Virus record (IMG/VR): IMGVR_UViG_3300017637_000004
Span: 1-22,758 of that record
DNA from: a virus
Direction: 5' to 3' (one strand)
DNA length: 22,758 bases
Shown: positions 4,687 to 21,408 of the stretch, in pieces
How the letters are laid out: each line of letters starts with the position of its first letter
Position numbering within the stretch: position 1 is the first letter of the stretch
Translations under genes and position numbers: made by a program
The notes under the pieces: model-generated
Database searches by the model: none
The model's input: the letters and a program-made list of their open reading frames with translations, nothing else
Told to the model about the DNA's origin: nothing

Positions 4687-4732
4687 GATCGGCTCTAGGC
4701 GATGCGTTCGCCCCTCGCTAAGCCACGCTCCC

Positions 4733-5461
4733 ATGTGCGTGCTGGCGTTGGCGTGGGGGATGCATCCCAATTGGTTGTTGGTCGCCGCGGGGAACCGTGA
4801 CGAGCGGCATGCGCGCGCGACTTTGCCGCTGTCGCGCTGGATGGCGAAGGGTCCGGTGATCGGCGGGCGCGATCTGGAGGCCGGGGGGACCTGGCTGGCG
4901 GTGAATGAGGCCGGGCGGCTGGCGGCGGTGACCAATGTGCGCGGGGAGGCGGCCGATCCGGGCAAGCTTTCGCGCGGGGCTTTGGTGACCGACATGCTCG
5001 CCGGGAATGAGCCGGAGGATTTGAACGCGTACAACCCGTTCAACCTGATCGCGGTGGATCGCGATGGGCCGCTCTATCTGTCGAACCGGCCCGATCCGGT
5101 GCGGCGGCCGCTGAGCCCGGGGATGCATGGGTTGTCGAACGGGTTGTTCGATACGTTGTGGCCCAAGACGATCCGGGTGCAGATGGGGTTGCGCGCCTGG
5201 CTGGAGGCGGGGAGCTCGGCGCTGGAGCCGCTGTTTGCGGTACTGGCCGACGAGCGGCCGGCGGGGGCGGCGGAGCGCTATGAACCCGATCCGTTCGAGC
5301 CGGTGGACTCGCCGGTGTTCATCCGCAACCCGGTCTATGGCACGCGGTGCAGCACGGTGGTGACGGTGGACCATCTGGGGCGCGGGCGGATTGCGGAGCG
5401 GCGGTTCAGTTCGACGGGGTTGCTGGAAGGCGAGAGCGTGTTGAGTTTTACGTGGAGTTGA
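4733..5461 (+). CDS. NRDE (TANGO2-like) family protein
   Basis: The 242-residue product begins MCVLALAW and carries NRDE at residues 21-24, the defining motif of the NRDE/TANGO2 family. The invariant Cys2 suggests an N-terminal-nucleophile-type fold, and this fixes the start at 4733 even though no Shine-Dalgarno is visible. A GGTWLAVN segment follows at about 49-56, also typical. The molecular role of bacterial members is unsettled; TANGO2 proteins have been linked to heme or acyl-lipid handling. No phage role is known to me. The gene lies 46 bases after the terminase stop and one base before the next gene, so it probably forms a pair with it. It is an insertion relative to the usual terminase-portal order. 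Confidence 0.88.
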   Translation: MCVLALAWGMHPNWLLVAAGNRDERHARATLPLSRWMAKGPVIGGRDLEAGGTWLAVNEAGRLAAVTNVRGEAADPGKLSRGALVTDMLAGNEPEDLNAYNPFNLIAVDRDGPLYLSNRPDPVRRPLSPGMHGLSNGLFDTLWPKTIRVQMGLRAWLEAGSSALEPLFAVLADERPAGAAERYEPDPFEPVDSPVFIRNPVYGTRCSTVVTVDHLGRGRIAERRFSSTGLLEGESVLSFTWS

Positions 5462-5462
5462 G

Positions 5463-6134
5463 ATGACACCTCGGGAAGTGATCGGCGTGGCCGAGGTGCC
5501 GGGCGGGGAACCGCTGCGGCTGGTGCGGCATGGGCGCGACTTCATCATCATGCTCGAGCGCAACGAGCTGATGTCGAGCCGGATGAGCGGATCGGAAGAG
5601 GCGCTGGCGGAAATGACGCTGGACCGGCTGAGCGATCCGGCGAATGCGCGGCTGCTGATCGGCGGCTATGGCATGGGATTTACGCTGCGCGCGGCGCTCA
5701 AGCGGCTGGGGCCGAAGGGATGGGCGTGCGTAGTCGAGCTGGTGCCGGGGATTATCGACTGGGCGCGCGGGCCGATGGCGGATCTGGCCGATGGGTGCCT
5801 GGACGATCCCCGCACGCAGCTGGTGATGGGCGATGTCGGCGCGGAGATTGCGCGCAGCCGGGGGAGCTGGGAGGCGATCCTGCTGGATGTGGACAATGGG
5901 CCGGACGGGCTGACGCGCGACGCGAATGACGGGCTGTACACGATGCGCGGGCTGGAGAAGGCGCGGGCGGCGCTGGCGCCGGGCGGCGTGCTGGCGGTAT
6001 GGTCGGCGGGGCCGGACCCGGCCTTTACGCGGCGGATGCGCGATGCGGGGTTCGAGGTTGAAGAGGTTCAGGTGCGGGCACGGCAGAATGGCAAGGGGCC
6101 GCGCCACGTGATCTGGTTCGGTAGGAAGCGCTAG
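5463..6134 (+). CDS. spermidine synthase-like / SAM-binding protein
   Basis: The 223-residue product has a Rossmann fold of the spermidine synthase or class I methyltransferase type. The nucleotide-binding loop is LLIGGYGMGFTLRAAL at about residues 63-78, an acidic residue ends the next strand (VVELVP), MGDVG follows, and AILLDVDNGPDG takes the place of the catalytic-loop region of aminopropyltransferases. It is shorter than a full spermidine synthase and lacks most of the N-terminal beta domain. It may use a different acceptor or be a methyltransferase; the substrate is unknown. GGAG at 5454-5457 serves the ATG at 5463, one base after the NRDE stop, so the two are probably co-translated. Like the NRDE gene it is not a particle component. 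Confidence 0.75.
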   Translation: MTPREVIGVAEVPGGEPLRLVRHGRDFIIMLERNELMSSRMSGSEEALAEMTLDRLSDPANARLLIGGYGMGFTLRAALKRLGPKGWACVVELVPGIIDWARGPMADLADGCLDDPRTQLVMGDVGAEIARSRGSWEAILLDVDNGPDGLTRDANDGLYTMRGLEKARAALAPGGVLAVWSAGPDPAFTRRMRDAGFEVEEVQVRARQNGKGPRHVIWFGRKR

Positions 6135-6172: not shown

Positions 6173-7297
6173 ATGAAATGGTTCGGGCGGAAGTCCGGGC
6201 GCGAGGGTTCGCGTCCGGTGTTGGCGCGTGGGCAGGGCGCGGGCGCGGTGCTGGGTGAGTGGCCGCAGAGTTACGAGGCGCAGGTGCGTGCGGGCTATGC
6301 TGCCAATCCGGTGGCGCAGCGGGCGGTGAAGATCATCGCCGAGGGCGTGGCGGCCGCGCCGGTCGCGGCGAGCGATGCGGCGTTGCTGAAGCTCATCACC
6401 GCGCGGAGCCAGGGGCAGGAGCTGGGGGCGACGATCGCCGCGCAGTTGCTGTTGCATGGGAATGCATTCGTGCAGCTCCTTGGCGATGGCGCGGGGGGCG
6501 TGGCGGAGCTGTTCGCGCTGCGGCCCGAGCGGATGAGCGTCGAGACCGATGCCGGGGGGTGGCCGGTCGGCTATCGTTATCGCGTCGGCGGGAGCGTCAC
6601 CACGATCGCGGCGGAGGATGCGGCGGGGCGTCCGCAGGTCGTGCATCTGAAGGCGTTCAACCCGGTCGACGATCATTATGGGCTGGGCTGCCTGGGCGCG
6701 GCGTCGGGGGCGATCGCGATCCACAATGCGGCGACGCGGTGGAACAAGGCGCTGCTCGACAATGCGGCGCGGCCATCCGGGGCGCTGGTCTATGAGCCGG
6801 GGGATGGGAGCGCGCTGTCACCTTCGCAGTTCGAGCGGCTCAAGAGCGAGATGGAGGCGGGCTTTGCCGGGGCCGCCAATGCCGGGCGGCCGATGCTGCT
6901 GGAGGGCGGGCTGAAGTGGCAGGCTATGAGCCTGACGCCGGCGGACATGGATTTTGTCGGGCTGAAGGCGGCGGCGGCGCGCGAGATCGCGCTGGCGTTC
7001 GGGGTGCCGCCGATGCTGATCGGCCTGCCCGGCGACAATAGCTATGCGAACTATCGCGAGGCGAACAAGGCGGTGTGGCGGATGACGATCCTGCCGCTGG
7101 CGGACAAGATCCTGACCGAATTGGCGCAGGGGTTGTCGCCGTGGTTTCCCGATGCGCGGCTGTGGGTCGCGGTCGACAAGGTCCCGGCGATGGCCGAGGA
7201 CCGCGAGCGGCTTTGGCGCAGCGTGAGCGCGGCGGAATTCCTGACGCCAGAGGAGAAGCGCGCGCTGGTGGGGATCGGCGCGGAGGTCGAGTCGTGA
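6173..7297 (+). CDS. HK97-type portal protein (GTA g3-like)
   Basis: Portal proteins form the twelve-fold ring at one head vertex through which DNA enters and to which the tail attaches. The 374-residue product shows the HK97-type features: a helical start (YAANPVAQRAVKIIAEGVA), HGNAFVQLLGD near residue 98, the clip/stem region, and the conserved GVPPMLIGLPGDNSYANYRE at about 277-296. The length is slightly short but within range for this type. AGGAGATC at 6161-6168 gives a strong ribosome site for ATG 6173. A small stem (6142-6147 with 6152-6157) lies in the 38-base gap upstream. The stop overlaps the next gene's GTG. Confidence 0.93.
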   Translation: MKWFGRKSGREGSRPVLARGQGAGAVLGEWPQSYEAQVRAGYAANPVAQRAVKIIAEGVAAAPVAASDAALLKLITARSQGQELGATIAAQLLLHGNAFVQLLGDGAGGVAELFALRPERMSVETDAGGWPVGYRYRVGGSVTTIAAEDAAGRPQVVHLKAFNPVDDHYGLGCLGAASGAIAIHNAATRWNKALLDNAARPSGALVYEPGDGSALSPSQFERLKSEMEAGFAGAANAGRPMLLEGGLKWQAMSLTPADMDFVGLKAAAAREIALAFGVPPMLIGLPGDNSYANYREANKAVWRMTILPLADKILTELAQGLSPWFPDARLWVAVDKVPAMAEDRERLWRSVSAAEFLTPEEKRALVGIGAEVES

Positions 7298-7611
7298 GCG
7301 CGCCGGTGGACGGCAAGCTGCTGGCGCAGCTGATCGCGCAAGGGTCGGCCGAGGGGGCGGACATGGCGACGCTACGCGCGGTGGCGGAGGAGGCGGGCGA
7401 GCTGGGCGCGAGCCGGGCGCTGGCGCGGCTGGGGCTCGACGATCCGCATGCCGGCAAGGACATGGGCGAGTTGCGCGAGCTGCTGGAGGCGTGGCGCGAT
7501 GCGAAACGGTCGGCGGTGAAGGCGGTCGCGGGATGGGTCGTGCGGATGCTGCTCGCGCTGCTGGTTGTGGGGCTGGCGGTGAAGCTGGGGTTTTGGGGGG
7601 TGGGGAAGTGA
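7294..7611 (+). CDS. DUF6127 family membrane protein (GTA g3.5 position)
   Basis: The 105-residue product resembles DUF6127, a small family I know from sphingomonad GTA-like clusters. It has a charged helical body (GADMATLRAVAEEAGELGA, then LRELLEAWRDAKRSA) and one hydrophobic helix near the C-terminus (about residues 82-101), so it is probably a membrane-anchored protein. It occupies the place of g3.5 in RcGTA, between portal and protease. Its role is unknown; membrane tethering of head assembly would be a guess. The start is GTG 7294, overlapping the portal stop as GTGA, with GGAGG at 7282-7286. It is coupled in the same way to the protease. Confidence 0.8.
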   Translation: MSAPVDGKLLAQLIAQGSAEGADMATLRAVAEEAGELGASRALARLGLDDPHAGKDMGELRELLEAWRDAKRSAVKAVAGWVVRMLLALLVVGLAVKLGFWGVGK

Positions 7612-8099
7612 ATGGCCCCGACAGGCCCTCCCCCGACCCCTCCCGCGAGCGGGAGGGGAGTGTGCGGTTCGCCGGTTATGCGGCGGTGTTCGATGTGCCG
7701 GATCGCGGCGGGGACGTGATCCGGGCCGGGGCGTTCGGGGCGCGGGTACGGCGGGTGCCGCTGCTGTGGCAGCATCGCGGGGCGCCGGTCGGGGTGATCG
7801 AGGCGATCGGCGAGGATGCGCGGGGCTTGCGGGTGACGGCGCGGGTCGATGCGCCCGGGCTGGCGGCACTGGTGGCGCGGGGCGCGGTCAATGGGCTCAG
7901 CTTTGGGTATCGCACCGTCAAGGCGCGGCAGGGGCGGTGGCGCGAGATCGAGGCGCTGGAGCTGTGCGAGGTGAGTCTGGTGGCGCGACCGATGCAGGGG
8001 CTGGCGCGGGTGCATACGGTGGCGGGTGTCGAAACAGCTTTGCAGGATCGCAACGCCATGGCAGGTGATACATTGTATCAGAGCAGGGGTCGCGGATGA
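7608..8099 (+). CDS. HK97 family prohead protease (GTA g4-like)
   Basis: This protease trims the capsid N-terminal arm and scaffold during head maturation. Counting from the GTG at 7608 the product has 163 residues, with catalytic His56 in LLWQHRG and Ser98 in NGLSFGY, plus the usual FAGYAAVFDVPDRGGDVI start of the domain. The first 18 codons are odd: they read through a palindromic repeat (7637-7658) and give a Pro/Arg-rich peptide foreign to the family. An alternative GTG at 7662, with GGGAGG at 7651-7656, would begin directly at the conserved domain and give 145 residues. The last 20 or so residues also look unlike the family. Both ends may have been remodelled by insertions. Its stop overlaps the next gene as ATGA. 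Confidence 0.88.
   Translation: MNGPDRPSPDPSREREGSVRFAGYAAVFDVPDRGGDVIRAGAFGARVRRVPLLWQHRGAPVGVIEAIGEDARGLRVTARVDAPGLAALVARGAVNGLSFGYRTVKARQGRWREIEALELCEVSLVARPMQGLARVHTVAGVETALQDRNAMAGDTLYQSRGRG
7637..7658. repeat. palindromic repeat inside the prohead protease 5' region
   Basis: CCCCTCCCGC at 7637-7646 is a perfect inverted repeat of GCGGGAGGGG at 7649-7658. It resembles the intergenic palindromes frequent in sphingomonads, and a degenerate relative lies at 9319-9351. Its right arm could serve as the ribosome site for the alternative GTG at 7662. Confidence 0.7.
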
Positions 8100-9247
8100 G
8101 ATCGATACGTGCGGCAATTCTGGCAATCGTTGCTGCCTTGTCGCTGTCGATCGTACCCGCGCCGGCATGTGCCGACAGTTGGGCGCTGCCTACGACCACC
8201 AGCTATGTGTCACCGGGCGGATGCGCCCGCATCACGATCGTGCCGCGTGCGCTGGAGGATCAGCTCTCGTATTTCGAGGACAAGGTCGAGAAGGTGGAGC
8301 CCGCCGGACAGAAGGCCGGCGGTGCGGACACCGCGCGGGCGCGGCTCGAACGTCGAGCGGGAGAACGCTGGGAAACGGTGTGGGAGGGCAAGATCGTGAA
8401 CGAGGTCGCCCCTGTATCGGCGATCGTCCGGGACGATGGCGCCTATGCCGTGACCTTCGATAACTGGCACGGCGTCGGCTATGGGCCAGATGTCGTGGCG
8501 ATCTATGGAGAAATGGGGCGGTTAGTGCGTGCCTTGTCGCTGACCGACCTCATGCCTGAAGACTATATTGCGGCGCTCCCGAGATCGGTCAGCTCGATGC
8601 GCTGGCGCGGGGAGCCGCGTTTCTCGCTGGACGGCACGCAGGTGGTGATCCCGGTCGTGATCCCTGGCGAGGAGGACGGTACGGTCGATTTTGCGATCAG
8701 TCTTGCCGACGGTCGGGCGGCGCCGACGGATGCTGCGGCATGGCAGCGGGCGCTGTCCAAAGGGCGCGCGGTTCGTACCGAACAGCTGGCGGCGGAAGCT
8801 GCGGCGAAAGCGGCGTTCATCGCCCCATTGCGTCGCCCCGGAGAGAATACCGAGCGTGCGTGGCACGATTATCTGCGCGAGGCTGTAGCGCGACGGATCG
8901 GAGACGATGCGTCGGCCTGGACTATGGTACTGCGGCTTCCGGGCGCGAAGGACTACGCGGTGTCGGAGACGTGGATCCGTGAACACCTGACCGACCGAGA
9001 CGCGTACATGGTCGCACTGGCCTCCCTGTCGGAACCGAACCTCGCCCGGGTTCTGACTAAGGTGGGGGCGACCTTGCCCAGGCATTCGTTGGTGAAGACG
9101 ACGGTGTTCGTTGCGGTGTCGGACCAGCATTGGCCAACGATCGTTTCGGCGATGCGGAACAGTGGCGCAGCACTTGTGCAGTTTGACCCGGACGAGGCGA
9201 TCGCACAGCGCCCGGAGCGAATAGTGCGACGGTATGAGGGCAATTGA
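8096..9247 (+). CDS. secreted protein of unknown function, inserted in the head genes
   Basis: I do not recognise a characterised family. The 383-residue product has a clear Sec signal peptide (residues 1-26, cleavage after PACA), so it is exported, unlike any known head protein. The mature part starts DSWALP and contains VTFDNWHGVGYG and a WRGEPRFSLDG stretch suggestive of beta-propeller-like or lipoprotein-like folds, then an alpha-helical half rich in Ala and Arg. AGGGG at 8085-8089 supports ATG 8096, which overlaps the protease stop as ATGA, so it is translationally coupled to the protease despite looking foreign. Codon use is less skewed to GGG and GCG than in the phage genes. It separates protease from capsid, which are normally adjacent. 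Confidence 0.75.
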   Translation: MRSIRAAILAIVAALSLSIVPAPACADSWALPTTTSYVSPGGCARITIVPRALEDQLSYFEDKVEKVEPAGQKAGGADTARARLERRAGERWETVWEGKIVNEVAPVSAIVRDDGAYAVTFDNWHGVGYGPDVVAIYGEMGRLVRALSLTDLMPEDYIAALPRSVSSMRWRGEPRFSLDGTQVVIPVVIPGEEDGTVDFAISLADGRAAPTDAAAWQRALSKGRAVRTEQLAAEAAAKAAFIAPLRRPGENTERAWHDYLREAVARRIGDDASAWTMVLRLPGAKDYAVSETWIREHLTDRDAYMVALASLSEPNLARVLTKVGATLPRHSLVKTTVFVAVSDQHWPTIVSAMRNSGAALVQFDPDEAIAQRPERIVRRYEGN

Positions 9248-9478
9248 ATTGTCGGCGCCCGCATGGCGACGGGCCGGCTGACTGTGGTCCCGGTAATGGT
9301 CTGACCGAATAAAAGAAGACCCCTCCTAACTCCTCCCGCAAGTTGGAGAGGCGGTGTTTGGCGGGCGCTGAATTTCTGAAACGACGGGGTTTGCCTGGGG
9401 CAGGCCCCTTCCATCGCTGGCGACGCCAGCGGTTCCCCTCCCCATGCCTGGGGAGGTTCCTTTGGCATGGAGAAGACT
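9248..9478. repeat. repeat-rich gap before the capsid gene
   Basis: No gene is visible in these 231 bases. The stretch from about 9319 is a run of palindromic, GC-rich repeats: a degenerate copy of the 7637-7658 element at 9319-9351, a pairing CCTGGGG/CCCC-type segment near 9393-9410, GCTGGCG/CGCCAGC around 9415-9431, and the perfect hairpin at 9437-9456. I see no convincing promoter in it. Confidence 0.6.
9437..9456 (+). promoter_or_regulatory. hairpin holding a possible capsid ribosome site
   Basis: CCTCCCCA at 9437-9444 pairs perfectly with TGGGGAGG at 9449-9456 around a TGCC loop. The right arm, GGGGAGG, is the only upstream Shine-Dalgarno candidate for an ATG at 9467 and would be hidden when folded. 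A start at 9479 would instead use GGAGAAG at 9469-9475, outside the hairpin. Confidence 0.45.
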
Positions 9479-10534
9479 ATGGAAACGAAGGCGGATGTCC
9501 TCGAACAGTCGTTCGAGGCGGTGGAAGCGGCTGGGGTGCCGGTGGCGCGGCCGATGTTGAGTGGCGCGCGCAGTGTGACGGGCGCGGCGTTCGAGGGGTT
9601 TCTGCGCAGCGGGAGCGGCGCGCTGGAGATGAAGGCGCTGTCGGGGACGAGCGGGGCCGAGGGCGGCTATGCCGTGCCGCGTGAGATCGACGCGCTGGTT
9701 GATGCGACGCTGGCGAGCATTTCGCCGATCCGCGCGATCGCCAATGTCGTGACGGTGGGCAGCGCGGGCTACCGCAAGCTGGTCGCGTCGGGCGGAACCG
9801 AATCCGGCTGGGCGAGCGAGACGGCGGCGCGCGACGAGACCGATACGCCAGTGTTCAACGAGATTGCCCCGCCGATGGGCGACCTGTTCGCCAATCCGGC
9901 GGCGAGCCAGGCGATGCTGGACGACGCCGCGTTCGATGTCGAAGCGTGGCTGGCCGACGAGATTGCGCGCGAATTCGCCCGGGCCGAGGGGGCGGCGTTC
10001 GTCAGCGGCAATGGGACCAACAAGCCCAAGGGTTTCCTGACCTATGCCACGGCGACGACCGGTGACGACGTCCGGGCGTTCGGCACGCTGCAGCATATCG
10101 TGTCGGGTGCGGCGGGGGCGTTTGCGGCCAATCCCGAGGAGAAGCTGATCGACCTGGTCCAGGCGCTGCGGCCGCCGTACCGCCAGGGTGCGGTGTGGTG
10201 CATGAACTCGTCGACGCTGGCGCGCATCCGCAAGTTCAAGACGAGCGACGGGGCGCTGCTGTGGCAGCCGTCGCTGAGCGCGGGGCAGCCGGCGACGTTG
10301 CTGGGCTATCCGGTGGTCGAGGCCGAGGACATGCCCGACATCGCGGCCAATTCGCTGTCGATCGCGTTCGGCAACTTCAAGGCGGGGTATCTGATCGCCG
10401 AGCGCGGCGAGACGCAGATCCTGCGCGATCCCTACAGCAACAAGCCGTTCGTCCACTTCTACGCCACCAAGCGCGTCGGCGGCGCGGTGACGAACTCCGA
10501 GGCGATCAAGTTGATGAAGTTCTCCGCCTCCTGA
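9479..10534 (+). CDS. HK97-fold major capsid protein (GTA g5-like)
   Basis: This is the main shell protein of the head. The 351-residue product has the HK97-type core: GGYAVPREIDALV, SPIRAIANVV, the GYRKLVASGGTESGWASE segment, the spine helix near FDVEAWLADEIAREFARAEG, SGNGTNKPKGFL, and the C-terminal HFYATKRVGGAV...KLMKFSAS ending typical of GTA capsids. Only about 50 residues precede MKALSG at residue 51, against roughly 80-100 in usual HK97/GTA capsids, so the scaffolding delta domain is largely missing. The start is either ATG 9479 (GGAGAAG at 9469-9475) or in-frame ATG 9467; I prefer 9479 because METK is the common start in relatives. It is separated from the protease by a secreted-protein gene. 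Confidence 0.95.
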   Translation: METKADVLEQSFEAVEAAGVPVARPMLSGARSVTGAAFEGFLRSGSGALEMKALSGTSGAEGGYAVPREIDALVDATLASISPIRAIANVVTVGSAGYRKLVASGGTESGWASETAARDETDTPVFNEIAPPMGDLFANPAASQAMLDDAAFDVEAWLADEIAREFARAEGAAFVSGNGTNKPKGFLTYATATTGDDVRAFGTLQHIVSGAAGAFAANPEEKLIDLVQALRPPYRQGAVWCMNSSTLARIRKFKTSDGALLWQPSLSAGQPATLLGYPVVEAEDMPDIAANSLSIAFGNFKAGYLIAERGETQILRDPYSNKPFVHFYATKRVGGAVTNSEAIKLMKFSAS

Positions 10535-10674: not shown

Positions 10675-12450
10675 ATGGCACAGCTGATTTACGCAGACCT
10701 AGTCGAGGAAGTGACGAGCACCACCGGGACCGGCGCGGTCACGCCCGGCGGAGCGGTGGACGGATCGCGCAGCTTTGCATCCGTGCTGAGCGAGGGTGAC
10801 CAATTTTACTACAGCATCTCCGGCGCGCCTGCGGACACGAGCCTGTTCGAGGTCGGGATCGGGACCTTGGTCGGCGGGACGATCGCGCGGGCGCCGATCG
10901 TGTCGTCTGCCGGGACCGGCGCCGTCGACCTGCCCGCCGGGTCCAAGACGATCGCGCTGACGGTTGCGGCCGAATTCTATCAGATTGTCCAGGCACATGA
11001 CGTGTTCGCTGCGTGGCAGGCGCTTCCCGGGAATACGGACGGGACGGTTGCGGAGTTTCTGACCGCGACGGTGAACCCGGACGTGTTCGGCCCATCGGAT
11101 GTGTTCGCGGCGTGGCAGGCGATTCCGGGCAACGAAGGTCTGTCGGTCAGCGATTTCCTGGACCAGGTGAGCGGTGCTGACGGGCTGTCGGCGCCGCATT
11201 ACACGATCGAGGCGGAGACGCCCCCCGATATCGATTCGGGCTGGTCGCAGGAGGGGCTCGTCTATGACTCCCCGTCGCGCGACGAAGGTGGCGAGCCGTC
11301 GAGCATCCGCTTCGGGCTCAACCTTACCTATGGACCCTATCCGGCGGATGCGCAGTTTCCGGGGCAGCTGGCCTATACCAACAATGTCTTCGGGCTGAGC
11401 TGGAACCTCAATACGAGTTTTGCGCCGATCAACACCGCGATGGGCGGGCCGTCGATCCGGATCGAGAGCAGGTTCAAGAAGCCGAGCCGCAATCCGGGCA
11501 ATCCGGGCGGCTGGGTCGACGGGTCCGAATTCCACCATGCCATGCACACCACCGGGGCGACCGGGTTCGAATATCGGCCGATCAGCATCTATGCCCCGTT
11601 CGACGAGGGCGATTGGGGGCATGATTCCGACACCAGTTTCCAGGCGGCCTATTATGCCTTTGCCGATGGCTATCGGAATGTGCACGTCACCTTTGGCTGG
11701 AATGGTGCAGCAGACGATGCAAAGCCGATCACCTTGTCCAATCAGGTTCGGATCAACCGCGCCGGGAACAACACCGCCTGGCTGACCCAGACCAATGCGG
11801 CGGGGACGTCGCAGATTAACCTGCCCTACGTCAATTCGGGCAACGGCTATACGTTCGATCGCGACATCTATCTGTCGGCGGGCAATGTCGGGACCAATCC
11901 GCTGGGCATTCAGTCGCTGTTGTCGCTGGTGGGTACGTCGGGGTTCACGAACGGCGCGCGGATGATCTACCTCAACACCAATGCGGTGACGGGGTCGGTG
12001 ACCGGGTTCGAGGCCGAGCTTTCCGCGTCGACGCGGTTCGAGGGCTTCAAGCTGCGCAACACCCATGCGAGCGGCGTTGCGGGCGGGCGGATCCAGGGCA
12101 ATGGCAATCTGTATCTCGACTTCTTCAACGAAGCCAATTTCCATCGCTGGGGCCTGCGGCTCAAGACCAATGGCGACTTCACCATCGGCCAGACCGATCA
12201 GGGCAACGATATCGCCGATGCGCTGCGCATCAACTTCACGACGCTGCAGACCAGTTTCATGAAGGCGCCGAGATTGCCGGGGGCGACTGTGGCGGGTGCG
12301 GGGTCGGCGGCGACGGCGGGCGCAGGGGCGCTGCATTATGTGACCGATCTGAACGCCACCACGACCGGGAGCGTCGCGGCGGGGGGCGGGAGCAATGGCG
12401 GCGTTGTCGTCAGCGACGGCGCGGACTGGAGGATCATGGCGGCATGGTAA
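10675..12450 (+). CDS. phage fibre-like protein between capsid and adaptor
   Basis: The 591-residue product looks like a fibre or spike that contacts the recipient cell. Residues 1-105 resemble the N-terminal attachment domain of many tail fibres (TSTTGTGAVTPGGAVDG, SFASVLSEGDQFYYSI). Two related 33-residue units follow, starting DVFAAWQA at residues 109 and 142, each with PGN; such units are common in fibre shafts. The middle is beta-rich and Gly/Asn/Thr-rich. The C-terminus (LHYVTDL..., SDGADWRIM) matches the end of many phage fibres. GGGAG at 10663-10667 serves the ATG. Composition is less G-rich than neighbours, consistent with acquisition. Fibre genes normally lie at the tail end; here it directly follows the capsid gene, so a head spike like RcGTA GhsA/GhsB is possible. 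Confidence 0.72.
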   Translation: MAQLIYADLVEEVTSTTGTGAVTPGGAVDGSRSFASVLSEGDQFYYSISGAPADTSLFEVGIGTLVGGTIARAPIVSSAGTGAVDLPAGSKTIALTVAAEFYQIVQAHDVFAAWQALPGNTDGTVAEFLTATVNPDVFGPSDVFAAWQAIPGNEGLSVSDFLDQVSGADGLSAPHYTIEAETPPDIDSGWSQEGLVYDSPSRDEGGEPSSIRFGLNLTYGPYPADAQFPGQLAYTNNVFGLSWNLNTSFAPINTAMGGPSIRIESRFKKPSRNPGNPGGWVDGSEFHHAMHTTGATGFEYRPISIYAPFDEGDWGHDSDTSFQAAYYAFADGYRNVHVTFGWNGAADDAKPITLSNQVRINRAGNNTAWLTQTNAAGTSQINLPYVNSGNGYTFDRDIYLSAGNVGTNPLGIQSLLSLVGTSGFTNGARMIYLNTNAVTGSVTGFEAELSASTRFEGFKLRNTHASGVAGGRIQGNGNLYLDFFNEANFHRWGLRLKTNGDFTIGQTDQGNDIADALRINFTTLQTSFMKAPRLPGATVAGAGSAATAGAGALHYVTDLNATTTGSVAAGGGSNGGVVVSDGADWRIMAAW

Positions 12451-13527: not shown

Positions 13528-13928
13528 GCGCGGCGGTGGTGTTGGCGGAGGCGATCCGGGCGGCGCTGAGCGGGCATGCGCCGCTCGCCGAGGGGCTGGC
13601 GGGGGTGTTCGTTGCGCCGCCGGTGCGCGCGGCGACGCCGCATGCGGTGATCGGTGAGGCGTTGCTGAGCGACTGGGGGACCAAGGACATGGCCGGGCGC
13701 GAGGCGCGGGTCGTGGTGAGCCTGTTCGATGCCGGGGAGAGTCCGGCGCGGCTGCGGCGGATGGTGGGCGAAGTCGAGGTGGCGATGGCGGGGCTGCCGC
13801 GCGTCATCGGCGGGGGCTGGGAACTCGCCAGCCGGGTGCTGTTGCGCGCGCGGATCGAGCGGAAGGGCGAGGGACGCTGGGTCGCGACGAGCGAGTGGCG
13901 GCTGCGCGTGTTGAAGAGCGGGATTTGA
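13524..13928 (+). CDS. DUF3168 family tail terminator (GTA g8-like)
   Basis: The 134-residue product matches DUF3168, the tail-terminator family that caps the tail tube at the head end. Visible features are an N-terminal helix (VVLAEAIRAALSG), GVFVAPPVRAATPHAVIGEA, the DWGTKDMAGREARVVVSLFD segment around residues 51-70, and a C-terminal strand pair ending in SEWRLRVLKSGI. The length is typical. It starts at ATG 13524, coupled to the connector gene by ATGA. RcGTA has a stopper gene (g7) between g6 and g8; none is visible here, so the connector and terminator may join directly or another protein may fill the place. Confidence 0.85.
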   Translation: MSAAVVLAEAIRAALSGHAPLAEGLAGVFVAPPVRAATPHAVIGEALLSDWGTKDMAGREARVVVSLFDAGESPARLRRMVGEVEVAMAGLPRVIGGGWELASRVLLRARIERKGEGRWVATSEWRLRVLKSGI

Positions 13929-14653: not shown

Positions 14654-14841
14654 GGTTCGCGGAGACCGCAGTGCGGCTGGCCGGGCAGGCGGGGGTGGCG
14701 TTCGGTTGGACGCCCGAGCTGTTCTGGAATGCGACCCCGGCCGAGTTGGCGGCACTGGTGCGGGCGGTGGCTGGCGAGGCGGTCGCACCGCCCGATCGCG
14801 ACATGATCGCACAGCTGATGGAGGCATTTCCCGATGAGTGA
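14650..14841 (+). CDS. phage tail assembly chaperone (GTA g10.1-like)
   Basis: The 63-residue product matches the very small tail assembly chaperone found after g10 in GTA clusters. Recognisable features are FGWTPELFWNATPAELAAL at about residues 19-37, where tryptophans and the TP-E-L pattern are typical, and a C-terminal helix with a short acidic end (FPDE). The start is GTG 14650, overlapping the previous stop as GTGA; no ATG exists in frame at a suitable place. Its last eight bases overlap the tape measure start. In siphophages such proteins often form a chaperone pair by frameshifting; here they are two separate but overlapping genes. Confidence 0.82.
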   Translation: MRFAETAVRLAGQAGVAFGWTPELFWNATPAELAALVRAVAGEAVAPPDRDMIAQLMEAFPDE

Positions 14842-15412
14842 GGATCTGGACGAGATGATCGTGCGCGTGCGCGCCGATACGCAAGGCTTTGCCCGCGACG
14901 TGGCCGAGATGCGCGCGGCGATCGACGGGCCGCTGCAGGCCGGGGCGGACCGCGCCGGGCGCGGGGTCGAGCAGGCGCTGTTGCGGGCGGCGCGGACGGG
15001 CAAGCTGGGATTCGAGGATCTGAAGCGTGTGGCGTCGCAGATCCTGAGCGAGATTGCGGCCGAAGCGGTACGCGCGGGGCTGTCGTCGCTGTTCGGAGGG
15101 GGCAGCGGCGGTAGTGGCGCGAGCAGTGCCGGGCTGGGTGCCGCGATCGGTCAGCTTCTTGGCCTGCCCGGCCGTGCGACCGGCGGGCCGGTGGCGCCGG
15201 GGCGGGGCTATGTCGTGGGCGAACGCGGGCCGGAGCTGTTCGTGCCGACGACGAGCGGGCGGGTCGAGGTCCCGGTTCAGGGCGGCGGGCGTGATGTGCG
15301 TGTGGCGATCACGATCAACGCGCCGGGTGGCGGCGACGCCGCCGGGGCGTTGCGGCAATCGGGGCGGCAGGTGGCGCGGGCGGTCAAGGCGGCGCTGGCG
15401 GGGGTGGATTGA
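14834..15412 (+). CDS. short tail tape measure protein (GTA g11-like)
   Basis: The tape measure sets tail length and is packed inside the tube. At 192 residues this one is very short, as in RcGTA (about 220), and would specify a short tail. It has a helical N-terminal half (GFARDVAEMRAAIDGPL, then FEDLKRVASQILSEIAAEAV), a Gly/Ser-rich linker at about residues 88-105, and the typical C-terminal GGPVAPGRGYVVGERGPELF followed by VPTTSGRVEVPVQ. The ATG at 14834 overlaps the chaperone gene by eight bases. It is the last gene before the inserted reverse-strand gene, whose stop is five bases away. Confidence 0.88.
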   Translation: MSEDLDEMIVRVRADTQGFARDVAEMRAAIDGPLQAGADRAGRGVEQALLRAARTGKLGFEDLKRVASQILSEIAAEAVRAGLSSLFGGGSGGSGASSAGLGAAIGQLLGLPGRATGGPVAPGRGYVVGERGPELFVPTTSGRVEVPVQGGGRDVRVAITINAPGGGDAAGALRQSGRQVARAVKAALAGVD

Positions 15413-15417
15413 AGGGG

Positions 15418-15762
15418 TCAGGGCCTGGTGCGGTTCAGATGATCCTCCAGGCGCCAACCGTCAGCCGTCAGGACCAGCCGAAAATTTTGGCGAGAGCGCG
15501 AACTCATCCGATGGATGACGCCCCGGCAGGTGACGGTTGCTTGCTCTGCCTCAGCGGGGGTGCAGCGGAGGGCGGTAACACGGCGGGTGCGATGGACTGC
15601 GACCGATACGACGTCGTCCGACCCGCGCGAGGCATCGGCCTGCAGATCCCATTCCAGGTCGCCTTCAAATGCGTTGAACGCGGCGATCACCTCTTGCGGC
15701 GAAGGGCAGGAGACGGGTGCTGCGCATCCCGACCCGGCAGCGAGCACCATCGCAAAGAGCAT
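15418..15762 (-). CDS. exported protein of unknown function, antisense within the tail genes
   Basis: No family recognised. The 114-residue product starts with a short hydrophobic signal sequence (MLFAMVLAAGSGCAAP), perhaps a lipoprotein signal, although the residues before Cys13 do not make a canonical lipobox. The rest is soluble with four further or so cysteines spread along it (for instance SCPSPQE and TALRCTP), which suggests a periplasmic disulfide protein. GAGAGGG just before the ATG at 15762 is a good ribosome site and decides against the upstream in-frame ATG. It runs against all surrounding genes: five bases separate its stop from the tape measure stop, and 43 bases separate its start from the DUF2460 start. 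Any promoter for it must lie in the first part of the next gene. Confidence 0.65.
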   Translation of the reverse strand: MLFAMVLAAGSGCAAPVSCPSPQEVIAAFNAFEGDLEWDLQADASRGSDDVVSVAVHRTRRVTALRCTPAEAEQATVTCRGVIHRMSSRSRQNFRLVLTADGWRLEDHLNRTRP

Positions 15763-15805
15763 ATCCCTCTCCCGTTCTGCGCGGCTTTTAACACGGAGCA
15801 CGACA

Positions 15806-18088
15806 ATGGCATATTGGCTGGCGTCCGAGCGGACGGTGCAGGTGGCGGGGGTGATCTCGCGCTTTGACCCCGCCTATTGGACGGTCAATTTTCCGCGGCC
15901 GATGATGGCGAGCGTGGTGACGATTGCGCCGGACGCATTGCGCGTGGATGCACTGTTCTATCGCCAGAATGATCTGGCGGGGCTGATCTGGGAGAGCGTG
16001 GATCGGCATGACCACCCGCTGCTGTCCTATGAAACCAGCCGCGACTATCGTGCGTGCCGGTTGCGCTTTCGCTGGCGTTCGTCGGGGGTGATGCCGCTGG
16101 ATGCGGTCAATGGCCCGGTGCTGACGATCGAGGGGCGCGATGCGGCGGGGGCGCCGCGCGCCTGGTATGTGCGGCTGTGGAACTATGCGCAGGGGACGCC
16201 GGAGGATTGCGTCGTCAGCCTCGACTTTGCCAGCGTTGCGGGCGGGTTCGTGCTGCCGGGCGAGGCCGATCCGGTGTGGGCTGGCGATGTCGACCGGATG
16301 TTCGTGAGCCTGGTGCCGCCGGGGTATACCGGTGCGGATGCGGCGCTGGCAGTGCCGGTCGAGGGGTGGGTCGAACTGTCGGAGATCGCGGTCGAGGGGC
16401 CGGGGGCGGTGCTGGCGATCGGCGATGTGGTGGTGCCGGAACACGGGCTGTCGATCTGCTCGGGCTATGACGACAGCTATCATGTCACGCCGGAACGACT
16501 GCTGCGCAATGCGCTGCAGCTGGGGTATCGCGGGGACATCGTCCATTATGTCGGGATGAGCCATTATTTCCGGCTCGAGGCGGCGTCGGGGGGCTATTAT
16601 GCGAGCCTGAGCGGTGGGGCGCTGAATGGCCCGTGCGCGGCCTGGCATACCGATTTCGCGGCGCGGACCAAGGCGTTGGGCTTCGGGGTGATCTGGTCGC
16701 TGTCCTATGAGCTGTTCGACGCGCATTGCTGGGGCGACTGGAAGCAGCGGGCGGCGGATGGGTCGCCCGCGCTGACCGGGTGGGAGCCGCCCTCGACCCT
16801 GTTGTCGCCAGCGCATGCGGGGGCGATGGGGTATCTGCAGGCGGTGGCCGCAGCGTTTGTCGGGATCGCGCTGGATGCGGGGCTAGCGGTCAAGTTCCAG
16901 GTCGGTGAGCCGTGGTGGTGGGTGATGGCCGATGGCCGGCTGTGCATTCATGACGATGCGGCGCGGGCGGCGTTGGGCGATCCGGCGGAGCAGAATGTGC
17001 GAGGCGATCCCGACACCGATGTGCTCGACGCGGCGGGGGCGTTGCTGGCGGCGTCGACGGCGGCGCTGGGTGCGGCGGTGCGGGGCGTGGCTCCGGGGGC
17101 GCAGCTGCTGCTGCTCGCCTATTTGCCCACGGTGCTGGACCGGGACGCGCCGGAGGCGATGCGGGCGAACTTGCCGGTCGGTTGGGCCTATCCGGCGTTC
17201 GATGTGCTGCAGCTGGAGGATTATGACTGGGCGGCGGCGGGCAATGCCGTTGCGAGCGCGCGCGGCGTGGCGCTGGCGCAGGGTCGACTGGGCTATCCGG
17301 TCGAGAAGCAGCATTATTTCGCGGGGTTCGTGCTGAACCGGGAGGATGCGGTGCAGTGGCGTGGGATCGCCGCAGCGGCGGATGCGGCGCGTGCGCGGGG
17401 CGTGGCAGCGACGTTCATCTGGGCGCTGCCGCAGGTGATCCGCGACGGGTTTGTGACCTTCGATCAGGAGGATGAGATGCAGGCGTTCGATGATGTGCTG
17501 TTTCCGATTGCGCTGGGGCGTGAGGCGGAGGTGGCGCCGGAGGTTTCGACCGCGATCCTGACCAGCGCGGGCGGGCATGAGGCGCGCAACGCCGCCTGGG
17601 CGCAGGCGCGGACGCGGTACGATGTCGGGCCTGGGGTGCGGAGCGAGGCGGATATCCGGGCGCTGCTTGGGTTTTACCGGGCGCGGATAGGGCCGGCGCG
17701 GGGGTTCCGGCTGCGCGATCCGTTCGATGATTGCTCGAACGATAGCGGGGAGCCGGGGGCGACCGACCAGGTGCTGGGCGAGGGGGATGGCGAGCGGCAG
17801 GCGTTTGCGCTGGTGAAGGCCTATGGCGATGTCGCGCGTCGGATCACGCGGCCGGTGGCGGGGAGTGTGCGGGTGGCGGTGGCCGGGGTCGAGACGGCGG
17901 CGTTCGCAGTGGATGCGGGCGGAGTGGTCGTGCTGGACGAGCCGCCGGCCGAGGGCGCGGTGGTGACGGCGGGGTTCCGGTTCGATGTGCCGGTGCGCTT
18001 TGCGGAGGATTCGCTGAGCGTTAATCGGGCCACGTTCATGGCGGGGGCGGCGCCGAGCGTGCCGTTGGTCGAGGTGCGTGAGGCATGA
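15806..18088 (+). CDS. DUF2460 tail protein with a long N-terminal glycoside-hydrolase-like region (GTA g12-like)
   Basis: The 760-residue product has DUF2460 (the distal tail protein family, g12 in RcGTA) only in its last 185 residues: STAILTSAGGHEARNAAWAQ near 580, LLGFYRARIGPARGFRLRDP near 619, and VRFAEDSLSVN near the end. The first 570 residues are extra. They begin with a beta-rich part (residues 1-210) and continue with sequence that reads like a TIM-barrel hydrolase, with candidate acids Glu368 in VGEPWW and Glu471 in QLEDYDW. The barrel is inference from motif style. This could be a tail-sheath-like or sugar-cleaving tail part. GGAG at 15796-15799 fixes ATG 15806; the longer upstream frame overlaps the antisense gene and is not coding. 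The stop overlaps the next start as ATGA. Confidence 0.85.
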   Translation: MAYWLASERTVQVAGVISRFDPAYWTVNFPRPMMASVVTIAPDALRVDALFYRQNDLAGLIWESVDRHDHPLLSYETSRDYRACRLRFRWRSSGVMPLDAVNGPVLTIEGRDAAGAPRAWYVRLWNYAQGTPEDCVVSLDFASVAGGFVLPGEADPVWAGDVDRMFVSLVPPGYTGADAALAVPVEGWVELSEIAVEGPGAVLAIGDVVVPEHGLSICSGYDDSYHVTPERLLRNALQLGYRGDIVHYVGMSHYFRLEAASGGYYASLSGGALNGPCAAWHTDFAARTKALGFGVIWSLSYELFDAHCWGDWKQRAADGSPALTGWEPPSTLLSPAHAGAMGYLQAVAAAFVGIALDAGLAVKFQVGEPWWWVMADGRLCIHDDAARAALGDPAEQNVRGDPDTDVLDAAGALLAASTAALGAAVRGVAPGAQLLLLAYLPTVLDRDAPEAMRANLPVGWAYPAFDVLQLEDYDWAAAGNAVASARGVALAQGRLGYPVEKQHYFAGFVLNREDAVQWRGIAAAADAARARGVAATFIWALPQVIRDGFVTFDQEDEMQAFDDVLFPIALGREAEVAPEVSTAILTSAGGHEARNAAWAQARTRYDVGPGVRSEADIRALLGFYRARIGPARGFRLRDPFDDCSNDSGEPGATDQVLGEGDGERQAFALVKAYGDVARRITRPVAGSVRVAVAGVETAAFAVDAGGVVVLDEPPAEGAVVTAGFRFDVPVRFAEDSLSVNRATFMAGAAPSVPLVEVREA

Positions 18089-18897
18089 CGGCGCACTGGC
18101 TGAACGCGCCGCTCGCGACGATCGCCTATTGCTGGCGGATCGAGCGGCGGGATGGGGTGGCGATCGGGCTGACGGCGCATGATCGCGATCTGGAGGTGGA
18201 TAGGTTCCACTATCGCGCTGCGCCGGGGATGACGCCGTCGGCGATCCGGCGCGGCGCGGGGCTGGATGCCGACAGCATGGATGTGACCGGGGCGCTGACC
18301 GGGGCGGCGATCAGCGAGGCCGACCTGTTGGCCGGGCGCTGGGACGGGGCGCGGATCAGCCTGTTCGCGGTCGACTGGACGGCGCCGGGCGAGGTGGTCG
18401 CACTGGGCAGCGGGACGATCGGGGCGGTCGAGACGCGCGATGGCGTGCTGACGGCCGAGCTGCGCGGCGCTGCGGCGGCTCTTGATGCGCCGGTGGTCGA
18501 GATGACCTCGCCCGAATGCCGCGCCGAGCTGGGTGACGCACGGTGCCGGGTGGCGATGGCGGGGCGGCGGCGGTTCGCGCGGGTGATTGCGGCTAATGGC
18601 GCGGCGCTGACGCTGGATCTCCACGAGCCGGTGGCGGGCGGATGGGCTGGCGGGCGGCTGCGCTGGTTCGGCGGAGCGCATAGCGGGCTGAGCGACGTGA
18701 TCGCGGCGTCGGTGGGGGATGTCGTGACGCTGCGGCGCGCGCCGCGTTTCGAGGCTGTGGGGGCATTGGTGGAGGTGAGCGAGGGATGCGACAAGAGCAT
18801 CGCGACCTGTGCGGGGCGGTTCGGCAATGCGGCGAATTTCCGGGGCGAGCCGTATCTGCCGGGGATCGACCTGTTGACGCGCTATCCGGGCGGGTGA
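18085..18897 (+). CDS. DUF2163 baseplate hub protein (GTA g13-like)
   Basis: The 270-residue product is a DUF2163 (BR0599-type) protein, the hub at the tail tip. It begins with the family pattern LNAPLATIAYCWRIERRDGV, then GLTAHDRDLEVD, a DVTGAL segment and SPECRAELGDARC. Four cysteines are placed at 145, 154, 235 and 242, the last two in EGCDKSIATC, followed by GNAANFRGEPYLPG, the most conserved stretch. The RcGTA hub is reported to hold an iron-sulfur cluster; this four-cysteine set would fit the same ligand pattern, which is inference. The gene is coupled to DUF2460 by ATGA and to the peptidase by GTGA. Confidence 0.92.
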   Translation: MTAHWLNAPLATIAYCWRIERRDGVAIGLTAHDRDLEVDRFHYRAAPGMTPSAIRRGAGLDADSMDVTGALTGAAISEADLLAGRWDGARISLFAVDWTAPGEVVALGSGTIGAVETRDGVLTAELRGAAAALDAPVVEMTSPECRAELGDARCRVAMAGRRRFARVIAANGAALTLDLHEPVAGGWAGGRLRWFGGAHSGLSDVIAASVGDVVTLRRAPRFEAVGALVEVSEGCDKSIATCAGRFGNAANFRGEPYLPGIDLLTRYPGG

Positions 18898-19268
18898 CGC
18901 CGCTGGAGCGCGCGCGCGGCGCGATCGGGGCGCGGTTTCGGTTGCATGGGCGGTGCGTGCCGCATGGGCTGGACTGTGTCGGGCTAGCGGGGTTGGCATA
19001 CGGGATCGCGGTGCCGCGCGGCTATGCGCTGCGCGGGGGCAGTGTGGCGCAGGTGGCTGACGCAGCCGCAGGGGTGGGGCTGATGCGCGTGGACGCGGCA
19101 CGGCCAGGCGATCTGGTGCTGTTCGATGCCGGGGCGGGGCAGCTGCACCTAGCCATCGCGAGCGAGGACGGCGTGATCCACGCCGATGCGGCGCTGCGCC
19201 GCGTGGCCGCACGGCCCGGCGTGCCGCCCTGGCCGGAACTGGCGCGGTGGCGGTTCAAGGAGGATTGA
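18894..19268 (+). CDS. NlpC/P60 peptidoglycan peptidase (GTA g14-like)
   Basis: The 124-residue product is a small NlpC/P60 cysteine peptidase that would open peptidoglycan so that the tail can deliver DNA. Catalytic Cys28 lies in HGLDCVGLAG and His85 in QLHLAIA, with His96 in GVIHAD as the third polar residue. RPGDLVLFD precedes the His, as is usual in the family. The start is GTG 18894, overlapping the hub stop (GTGA). Relative to RcGTA g14 it is of similar size and lacks a signal peptide, as expected for a particle component. The position between hub and tail-tip protein is as in RcGTA. Confidence 0.9.
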   Translation: MTPLERARGAIGARFRLHGRCVPHGLDCVGLAGLAYGIAVPRGYALRGGSVAQVADAAAGVGLMRVDAARPGDLVLFDAGAGQLHLAIASEDGVIHADAALRRVAARPGVPPWPELARWRFKED

Positions 19269-19269
19269 G

Positions 19270-21408
19270 ATGGCGACGTTGGTACTTTCCACCGTCGGCG
19301 GGATCGTGGGCGGTCCGGTCGGCGCGATGATCGGTGCGCTGGCCGGGCAGGCGATCGACCGGGAGTTGCTGTTCAAGCCCAAGGGGCGCGATGGGCCGCG
19401 GTTGACCGAACTGGCGGTACAGACGTCGAGCTATGGCACGCCGATCCCGCGGCAGTTCGGAACGATGCGGGTGGCGGGGACGGTGATCTGGGCCACCGAT
19501 CTGATCGAGCATCGTCAGCGCGAGGGCGGCAAGGGGCGACCGACTGTAAACAGCTATAGCTATACTGCGTCGTTCGCGGTGGCGTTGTCGGCGCGGCCGA
19601 TCCTGTCGGTCGGGCGGATATGGGCGGACGGCAAGCTGTTGCGCGGTGCGGCGGGCGACTGGAAGGTGCGGACCGGGTTTCGGCTGCACCTGGGCAACGA
19701 GGATCAGGCGGTCGATCCGCTGATCGCGTCGGCCGAAGGGGCGGGGCTTGCTCCGGCGCATCGGGGGATCGCCTATGCCGTGTTCGAAAATCTGGAGCTC
19801 GAGGAGTTCGGCAATCGCATTCCGTCGCTGAGTTTCGAGGTGACCGCCGATCCGGGGCCGGTGGCGGCGGGAGAGATCGTGGCCGAACTGTCGCGCGGGA
19901 CGATCGCGGCGGGCGAGGCGATGCAGCCGATTGCGGGATATTCGGCCTATGGGGAGACGGTGCGAGGGGCGTGCGCGCCGCTGATCGAGGCGAATGGTGC
20001 CTGGCCCGTCGCGCGCAGTGCCGGATTTGTGCTGGTGAACGGGGCGGACAGCGGAGCGCTGCCTCTCGTTGATCCCGGCGTGGGTGGCGCGGGTGTGGAG
20101 CGGGCGATCGAGTCACCGGACCGGGTGCCGCGCCGGGTCGTGATCAGTCACTATGATCCGGCGCGCGACTATCAGGCCGGCGTGCAGAGCGCATCCGACC
20201 CGGCGGGGCAGGATCGCGAACGGCGCATCGAACTGCCCGCGGCTCTGCCGGCGGAAGCGGCGAAGCGCATTGCGGAAGCGGAGCTGATCCGCGCCGACTG
20301 CATGCGCATCCGGCGCATGGTGCACCCGGGATGGTCGGCACTGGGGATCGCGCCGGGCCAACGGGTGGCGATTGTCGGCGAAGCGGGGCAGTGGCGCGTG
20401 ATCGAGGCGCGGATCGAGGACGGCGACGTTGCGCTGATGCTGACCCCGGTTGCGCCGAATGCCATTCCGGTCGGGGCGAGTCCCGGGCGTGTCGCTCCGG
20501 CACCGGACCGGGTCCATGGCGCGACGGTGCTCCATGCATTTGAATGCCCCCATCTTGGCGAGGAGCTGCTGAGCGGGCCACGATTGTCGATTGCGGCATG
20601 TGGCACCGCGCCCGGGTGGCGACGCGCCGCGCTGGCGCTGAGCGGGGATGCCGGCGCGCGGTGGGAGCCAATCGGTGCGACTGCCGCACCGGCGGTGATC
20701 GGCGTGGTCGCGGTCCCAGCCGGCCGCGCGAGCGCGCTGATCGCAGATCGCGTGTCGCAACTGGTGGTCGACCTTGCTCATGCCGAGCTGGCCTTGGCCG
20801 ACGCGAGCGTCGAGGCGCTCGATGCGGGCGCGAATATTGCCATGGTAGGAGACGAGCTGATCCAGTTCGGTTGCGCCGAGCCGATGGGTGGCGGGCGCTG
20901 GAGACTGACGGAGTTGTGGCGCGGACGGCGGGGGACTGAAGATGCAATCGGCGCGGGCGTCGCAGGCGACCGCTTCGTCCTGATCGAACGCGACGTATTG
21001 GTCGTTCGCGACGGGATTGCGGCGGGCGGGGTTCAGCGCGTCATGGCGACCGGAGTCGGCGATTTGGAGTCGGTAGAGCAGGCGTTGATGGTCACGGGTC
21101 GGTCAGCGACGCCACCGGCACCGGTCGCGCCGCATGTCGCGCGTACGGCTGGTGGGCGGGTACTGCGCTGGACCCGCCGCAGTCGAGCCGGCTGGCGCTG
21201 GAGCGACGGCACGGACGCGCCGGTGGGTGAAAGTATCGAGCGCTATCACCTGCGCCTGAGCATTCCCGGCCAGCCACCGGTGGTCGTGATGCGCGACACG
21301 CCGTTTTGGACCGTGGACAGTACCTCCGCAATGCAGGTGGAGATACGCCAGGCGGGTGATCACGGGCTGTCCCCACCCGCTACCCTGACTCTCGAAGCGA
21401 TGGAGTAA
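19270..21408 (+). CDS. large tail-tip protein (GTA g15-like, short form)
   Basis: The 712-residue product is the large tail-tip or host-specificity protein. It starts with a Gly-rich hydrophobic segment (LSTVGGIVGGPVGAMIGALA), then QTSSYGTPIPRQFGTMRVAG at about residues 51-70, SYSYTASFAVALS, and the AYAVFENLELEEFGNRIPS motif that marks phage tail_3-type proteins. The C-terminal part is beta-rich, with a fibronectin-like ending (WTVDSTSAMQVEIRQAGDHG). RcGTA g15 has about 1300 residues and includes an N-terminal TIM-barrel; this protein seems to lack it and opens directly into the tail_3 part. AAGGAGG at 19258-19264 is a strong ribosome site for ATG 19270. Confidence 0.88.
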   Translation: MATLVLSTVGGIVGGPVGAMIGALAGQAIDRELLFKPKGRDGPRLTELAVQTSSYGTPIPRQFGTMRVAGTVIWATDLIEHRQREGGKGRPTVNSYSYTASFAVALSARPILSVGRIWADGKLLRGAAGDWKVRTGFRLHLGNEDQAVDPLIASAEGAGLAPAHRGIAYAVFENLELEEFGNRIPSLSFEVTADPGPVAAGEIVAELSRGTIAAGEAMQPIAGYSAYGETVRGACAPLIEANGAWPVARSAGFVLVNGADSGALPLVDPGVGGAGVERAIESPDRVPRRVVISHYDPARDYQAGVQSASDPAGQDRERRIELPAALPAEAAKRIAEAELIRADCMRIRRMVHPGWSALGIAPGQRVAIVGEAGQWRVIEARIEDGDVALMLTPVAPNAIPVGASPGRVAPAPDRVHGATVLHAFECPHLGEELLSGPRLSIAACGTAPGWRRAALALSGDAGARWEPIGATAAPAVIGVVAVPAGRASALIADRVSQLVVDLAHAELALADASVEALDAGANIAMVGDELIQFGCAEPMGGGRWRLTELWRGRRGTEDAIGAGVAGDRFVLIERDVLVVRDGIAAGGVQRVMATGVGDLESVEQALMVTGRSATPPAPVAPHVARTAGGRVLRWTRRSRAGWRWSDGTDAPVGESIERYHLRLSIPGQPPVVVMRDTPFWTVDSTSAMQVEIRQAGDHGLSPPATLTLEAME

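Follow-up and report, generated by a model that had tools for sequence, protein, structure and literature searches.

This locus raises the question of where a GTA-type tail carries its barrel domain: on the tail-tip protein, as in RcGTA, or on a different tail protein, and in the latter case whether the barrel was moved there or gained separately. The window, that is, the whole stretch of DNA analysed, comes from IMG/VR and is 22,758 bases long. From g2 to g15 (terminase to megatron-like protein), its gene order is that of an RcGTA-type head-tail cluster. The tape measure protein has only 192 residues, so a short tail is expected.

3358-4686, terminase
6173-7297, portal
7491-8099, S78 protease
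9467-10534, capsid
13530-13928, tail completion protein
14834..15412, plus strand, g11-position tape measure protein, 192 aa
15806..18088, plus strand, g12-position distal tail protein, 760 aa, with NCTSP_N, TIM barrel and DUF2460
18085..18897, plus strand, g13 baseplate hub protein, unfused in the window (PF09931, PF09356; TIGR02218 above cut-off)
18786..19268, plus strand, g14-position NlpC/P60-like peptidase, start uncertain, overlapping g13
19270..21408, plus strand, g15 tail-tip protein (short megatron), 712 aa

PF00877 scores 19.5 bits on the g14-position peptidase, under its 23-bit cut-off. Several other genes lie within or beside the cluster. The leftmost part of the window holds an ADP-ribosylglycohydrolase gene, which adjoins the cluster in the genome of Sphingomonas sp. 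R647 too. Host-like TANGO2-like and spermine-synthase-like genes lie between terminase and portal (4634-6134), and their homologues are near the cluster in several further sphingomonad loci. Family searches give no match for a protein of 383 residues whose start resembles a signal peptide (8096-9247, between protease and capsid) or for a 591-aa fibre-like protein (10675-12450, between capsid and g6); the latter is found only in the closest relatives and in L160, and is possibly a head fibre. The gap between tape measure and g12 is occupied by a 127-aa open reading frame on the minus strand (15418-15801), which has no match in Pfam.

The g12-position protein is a composite. Its start codon (ATG 15806) has a Shine-Dalgarno-like GGAG 7 nt upstream, and three Pfam domains together divide the whole protein.

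15854..16423, plus strand, NCTSP_N, residues 17-206, homologous to the N-terminal part of N4 gp65 (PF23844, E 1.1e-99)
16436..17452, plus strand, (beta/alpha)8 barrel, TIM-barrel_NCTSP, residues 211-549 (PF23845, E 1.3e-160)
17489..18079, plus strand, DUF2460 or distal tail domain, residues 562-758 (PF09343, E 6.6e-69)

An earlier note, made from the DNA letters, had suspected a barrel within residues 200-570, and the PF23845 match, with 534.6 bits (cut-off 27) over positions 1-348 of the 348-position profile, bears this out. The note also placed DUF2460 correctly at the C-terminal end, but gave it 185 residues, and we measure 197. DUF2460 is assigned by PF09343 (231.9 bits, cut-off 30.4) and TIGR02217 (189.7 bits, cut-off 136.65), and it matches RcGTA Rcc01695 with E 1.9e-43. 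This three-domain architecture is not a product of chance, since the same arrangement is shared by about 300 homologous ORFs. A PHROG family of unnamed function, PHROG 6040, also covers the composite, matching the window protein over residues 12-754 with E 3e-205. The closest cellular relatives of the protein are in Sphingomonas, with 94% amino acid identity in Sphingomonas sp. R647 (L081). In the plasmid collection, a similar gene over most of the query was found only on one 395-kb Sphingomonas replicon.

The AlphaFold2 (AF2) model of the g12 protein, built with 96 homologues, has a pLDDT of 94.3 and a pTM of 0.87. It contains eight barrel strands (216-220, 244-249, 294-300, 363-367, 433-439, 467-471, 502-506, and 535-538), and the strands and helices follow each other in barrel order. 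In a structure search of the PDB, the best match of the barrel is N4 gp64 (Z 28.7, 2.4 Å over 294 residues). The next fold neighbours are glycoside hydrolases at Z 19-23, as the earlier note had anticipated, including GH42 beta-galactosidase (23.1), GH14 beta-amylase (21.8), the glycan hydrolase PgaB (21.5), and GH35 and GH164 (both about 20.5). In the model, the barrel is glycoside hydrolase-like by structure, and a common fold does not establish function.

Three glutamates are located at the strand ends of the modelled barrel, where acidic residues would be expected in a hydrolase.

16709..16711, plus strand, Glu302 codon, just after barrel strand 3, invariant
16907..16909, plus strand, Glu368 codon (GEPWWW), just after barrel strand 4, invariant
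17216..17218, plus strand, Glu471 codon (LEDYDW), last residue of barrel strand 6, invariant

Glu368 and Glu471 had been pointed out before at these same positions, and Glu302 had been missed. Together with Asp383, the three are 100% conserved in the 96 homologues (32 effective), which were drawn from diverse viral contigs and sphingomonad genomes; Asp222 and Asp223 are conserved at 96-97% in the same set. The invariant acids of the barrel are also kept in Acinetobacter, Salmonella, and Pseudomonas phage proteins. Clan GH-A glycoside hydrolases require a glutamate at the ends of both strand 4 and strand 7. Glu368, directly after strand 363-367, is placed as the acid/base of this clan would be, yet the second conserved glutamate is on strand 6 and not where the nucleophile belongs, and no acid is conserved on strand 7 (502-506), with positions 503 and 511 variable among the 96 homologues. 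The clan-A spacing proposed earlier for the two acids therefore fails for this barrel, and the choice of a catalytic pair is a guess, which for us would be Glu368 with either Glu471 or Glu302. Mean conservation is no higher on the catalytic face than on the opposite face of the barrel (p 0.29), which leaves the individual invariant residues as the argument for a pocket.

The g15 tail-tip protein starts at ATG 19270, preceded by the Shine-Dalgarno-like AAGGAGGA. Its length of 712 residues had been read correctly, but the tail_3 part is not at its very start as supposed: this part is at residues 232-380, and residues 1 to ~195 correspond to megatron residues 20-225, an iris/adhesin-like stretch. 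Aligned with the RcGTA megatron, g15 residues 9-219 match 20-225, and residues 222-664 match 791-1248, weakly. Against other megatrons (L194, L195), the two g15 blocks abut at 195/196 and about 500 residues are skipped. Megatron residues ~226-790 are thus missing at the junction near 195/196 (nucleotides 19854/19855), and the missing peripheral domain amounts to ~500-560 residues, GTA_TIM included. The megatron equivalog NF048004 scores 359.4 bits on this protein, below its cut-off of 800. Because the blocks abut with the middle skipped and the equivalog stays under its cut-off, the entire peripheral domain is absent, beyond the barrel alone. PF13547 (GTA_TIM) has no match in the window record, nor in the g12 protein or g15, which agrees with the earlier suggestion of a tail-tip protein without a barrel. 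Where GTA_TIM is matched in Pfam, it is accompanied by a match to GH113, a clan-A family, at residues 437-465 of the peripheral domain. Judged from sequence and this match, the clan-A signal is one of the GTA_TIM barrel rather than of the window barrel. The megatron TIM barrel projects from the tail tip of RcGTA, and its function is given as unknown in a 2026 preprint (PMC13420450); the peripheral domain is termed mannanase-like in a roseophage paper (R4C, PMC10276861).

Comparison with known systems shows where the two halves of the g12 protein have their counterparts. The NCTSP_N and barrel parts are shared with the N4 sheath proteins gp65 and gp64 (PDB 9lc0, 9yf4, 9yf5), which also have the GEPWWW and EDYDW motifs. 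Around the N4 tail, gp64 and gp65 pair up as a sheath with six-fold symmetry (PMC12633501). This short-tailed phage encodes the module in two separate genes, whereas in the window it is one chain fused to a GTA-type distal tail protein, without the receptor-binding C-terminal part present in N4 gp65. The DUF2460 half corresponds to RcGTA Rcc01695 (g12; PDB 6tba, 6teh), the whole 210-aa protein being homologous to window residues 560-758, and the R4C distal tail protein (8gtc) is listed with it as a counterpart. RcGTA g12 has no N-terminal barrel module, unlike the window protein, and the distal tail of RcGTA is a hexamer with six-fold symmetry (PMC7296036). The RcGTA megatron Rcc01698 (g15) likewise has a TIM barrel at the tail tip, but this barrel belongs to another family (PF13547), is carried on a trimeric g15, and has a clan-A-type motif matching GH113. 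Salmonella phage UAB_1 (Justusliebigvirus) and Acinetobacter phage fJoAci01 have NCTSP_N and barrel with the invariant acids in common with the window, but no DUF2460 fusion, and are of other tail types.

The NCTSP_N and barrel module is portable: it is found fused to g12, fused to the hub g13, standing alone, or split over two genes in N4. Fusion to DUF2460 is found in most loci. Fusion to the hub is found instead in a cellular genome (L165/L397) and in viral contigs (L310, L318, L321, L328, L329); in these loci, DUF2460 is unfused where that part is present, and complete g15 proteins have ~770-800 residues. Stand-alone modules are those of fJoAci01 and UAB_1. In N4-like contigs (L312, L313, L314, L316, L320), barrel positions 4-46 are on the gp65-like ORF and positions 63-342 on the gp64-like ORF, so that strands 1-2 and strands 3-8 are separated with no overlap. 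The same split is seen when the PDB is searched by profile: positions 3-253 of the window-protein profile match gp65 (46-416 of 9lc0_I), and positions 268-559 match gp64 (110-410). The gp65:gp64 heterodimer of N4 may complete the barrel in trans. In the barrel tree, the hub fusions form one clade (SH-aLRT 98), and the state of the g12 fusion changes at least five times, so the fusion partner has changed repeatedly. No hub-like C-terminus was detected by phmmer in the Lebethron barrel protein. In two viral relatives, a SASA carbohydrate-esterase domain follows the barrel (L322, 2335-aa ORF; L325, 1131-aa ORF).

The two barrels exclude each other in all sampled sequences. Among the same 387 alphaproteobacterial genomes, PF23845 is found in 5 and PF13547 in 40, with an overlap of 0. 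In the Sphingomonas family, PF23845 is present in 96 of 149 genomes, nearly always in single copy, and PF13547 is over its cut-off in 0 of 149; flanking synteny between the sphingomonad genomes is weak and patchy. We also counted loci, de-duplicated by unique g15; each had been picked up through one of the two traits and then examined for the second. The barrel without the peripheral domain is found in 188 unique g15 loci, and the GTA peripheral domain without the barrel in 112; none of these loci, nor any of the sampled genomes, has both. DUF2460 is unfused in all GTA_TIM loci checked. In four divergent phage loci with the barrel and a short g15, the middle block was not recognised. Seven loci have neither barrel (L410-L414, L428, L429); each of them is decayed or lies at a contig end. 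An intact cluster lacking both a barrel and a domain at the peripheral slot was not seen among the loci scored. Four of these loci, in cellular sphingomonad genomes (L410, L411, L412, L413), are decaying clusters that have lost g12 and other genes, with g15 still open. In ten loci without a barrel, another stretch of ~320-420 residues is found at the slot of the peripheral domain; in L416 and L417, this stretch may be a divergent tail_3 part instead of an insert. Seven loci (L415, L418, L419, L421, L425, L426, L427) represent a third class of g15 with a repetitive, beta-rich insert of 360-420 residues and an unfused DUF2460. This insert looks propeller-like by eye, with at best a sub-threshold propeller repeat in Pfam. 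On the g15 tree, the barrel trait changes four times, which gives 2 (on supported branches) to 4 independent pairs, all concordant. As the loci are related by descent and so few pairs are independent, the exclusion lacks statistical significance; it is striking and statistically unproven.

We propose that in the sphingomonad GTA-type cluster the g12 module does the job of the g15 peripheral TIM barrel and that it binds, and probably hydrolyses, surface polysaccharide; we give this reading a probability of roughly 60%. It looks like one sugar-handling tool replaced another in the virus-like DNA-delivery particles of Sphingomonas, with sugar cutting predicted. In the proposed arrangement, an N4-sheath-type module (NCTSP_N with a glycoside hydrolase-like barrel) would sit at the N-terminus of g12 in the Sphingomonadaceae cluster. 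If DUF2460 forms a hexamer, as the RcGTA and N4 structures suggest, then the end of the tail would be surrounded by six barrels, with the N-terminus of g12 probably facing the baseplate; both copy number and position are borrowed from RcGTA and N4 and not taken from this particle. The counterpart in RcGTA would be the three barrels on the trimeric megatron. The barrel would act on the polysaccharide during the approach to the cell, as its fold and conservation suggest. Most likely, the module is a six-copy collar that cleaves or binds glycans, catalysis being suggested by the modelled fold and the conserved residues. We hold a wider reading more tentatively, and at less than even odds: NCTSP_N and barrel may define a so far undescribed family of virion enzymes that cleave glycans, the acids being located after strands 3, 4, and 6; this family would be used on at least four tail scaffolds, have its barrel completed in trans in N4, and have functionally replaced the clan-A-like megatron barrel in Sphingomonadaceae GTAs.

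The most direct challenge to a cutting role is that the barrel once was, or only resembles, a glycosidase and serves as a collar that binds glycans or is structural, without catalysis, like an N4 sheath subunit. The gp64:gp65 pair is indeed a tail sheath, strand 7 lacks an acid, and the aromatic-rich GEPWWW fits sugar stacking as well as catalysis; in addition, no hydrolytic or other enzyme activity is reported for any member of the barrel family in the literature searched, nor for gp64 in the main text of the N4 preprint (PMC12633501). However, three invariant glutamates at strand C-ends together with the near-invariant Asp222/223, kept in very different phages, exceed the conservation usual for binding only. 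Moreover, receptor binding by the gp65 homologue of phiAxp-3, an N4-like phage, maps to 795-1195, outside the barrel (PMC5862860), and the SASA esterase domain adjoins the barrel in L322 and L325; these two observations support a glycan role without being decisive. We consider a non-catalytic collar rather unlikely. A literal domain swap, in which the TIM barrel of RcGTA g15 itself was relocated to g12, could explain why the two barrels are mutually exclusive and similar in size, but it is very improbable. Their Pfam families differ, and PF13547 matches neither the window record nor the g12 protein. GTA_TIM matches clan-A GH113, and the window barrel, without an acid on strand 7, does not. In hhalign, the window barrel and the GTA peripheral domain have no significant homology (probability 0.3%), although FQVGEP/FLIGSE and LQLEDYDW/GIDNY are aligned with each other despite this. 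The window barrel is most closely related to N4 gp64:gp65 and to other phage tail proteins. Thus, of the two origins raised in the earlier note, separate gain of a barrel of the N4 sheath family is favoured, and transfer of the g15 barrel is not.

The exclusion could also reflect shared ancestry only, each lineage happening to hold one barrel with no functional replacement. The g15 tree needs only four trait changes, with 2-4 independent pairs, and the third class of g15 holds an unrelated insert of ~360-420 residues at the slot and no barrel, both of which fit descent. On the other hand, the barrel switched its fusion partner among g12, the hub g13, and others while g15 remained short, and an intact cluster with neither is lacking among the loci scored; we regard ancestry alone as doubtful. 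An origin of the fusion in faulty assembly or annotation can practically be dismissed: frameshifted copies are isolated (L146, L199), and such an error is already refuted by independent assemblies, in which about 300 fused ORFs are intact, and by a single open frame in nearly all of the 96 genomes. We prefer a g12 module that does the work of the megatron barrel, in whichever direction the exchange went. A whole bacterial family has an unrelated barrel on another tail protein, and the two barrels never occur together; this suggests that tails of this type require a sugar-handling barrel close to the tip, and the contrast between the two barrels offers a comparison for testing this need. Because N4, Justusliebigvirus-type tail proteins, and GTAs are linked by one module, a single assay of the barrel would bear on all of them.

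Parts of this picture are already known. RcGTA-like clusters have been described in Sphingomonadales (PMC11409702, PMC8067484), both domains of the module have Pfam entries, and the composite protein is clustered in PHROG 6040. In the open-access literature, we found no description of the g12 composite, of its portable module, or of the way the two barrels exclude each other, and nothing on PF23844/PF23845 or the barrels of sphingomonad GTAs. PHROG 2913, which is matched by the DUF2460 part alone, carries the name 'glycoside hydrolase', and in the R4C study the distal tail protein is likewise linked to glycoside hydrolases (PMC10276861). These labels may have been carried over from fused barrels, and such fusions offer an explanation for the link between distal tail proteins and 'glycoside hydrolase' in databases.
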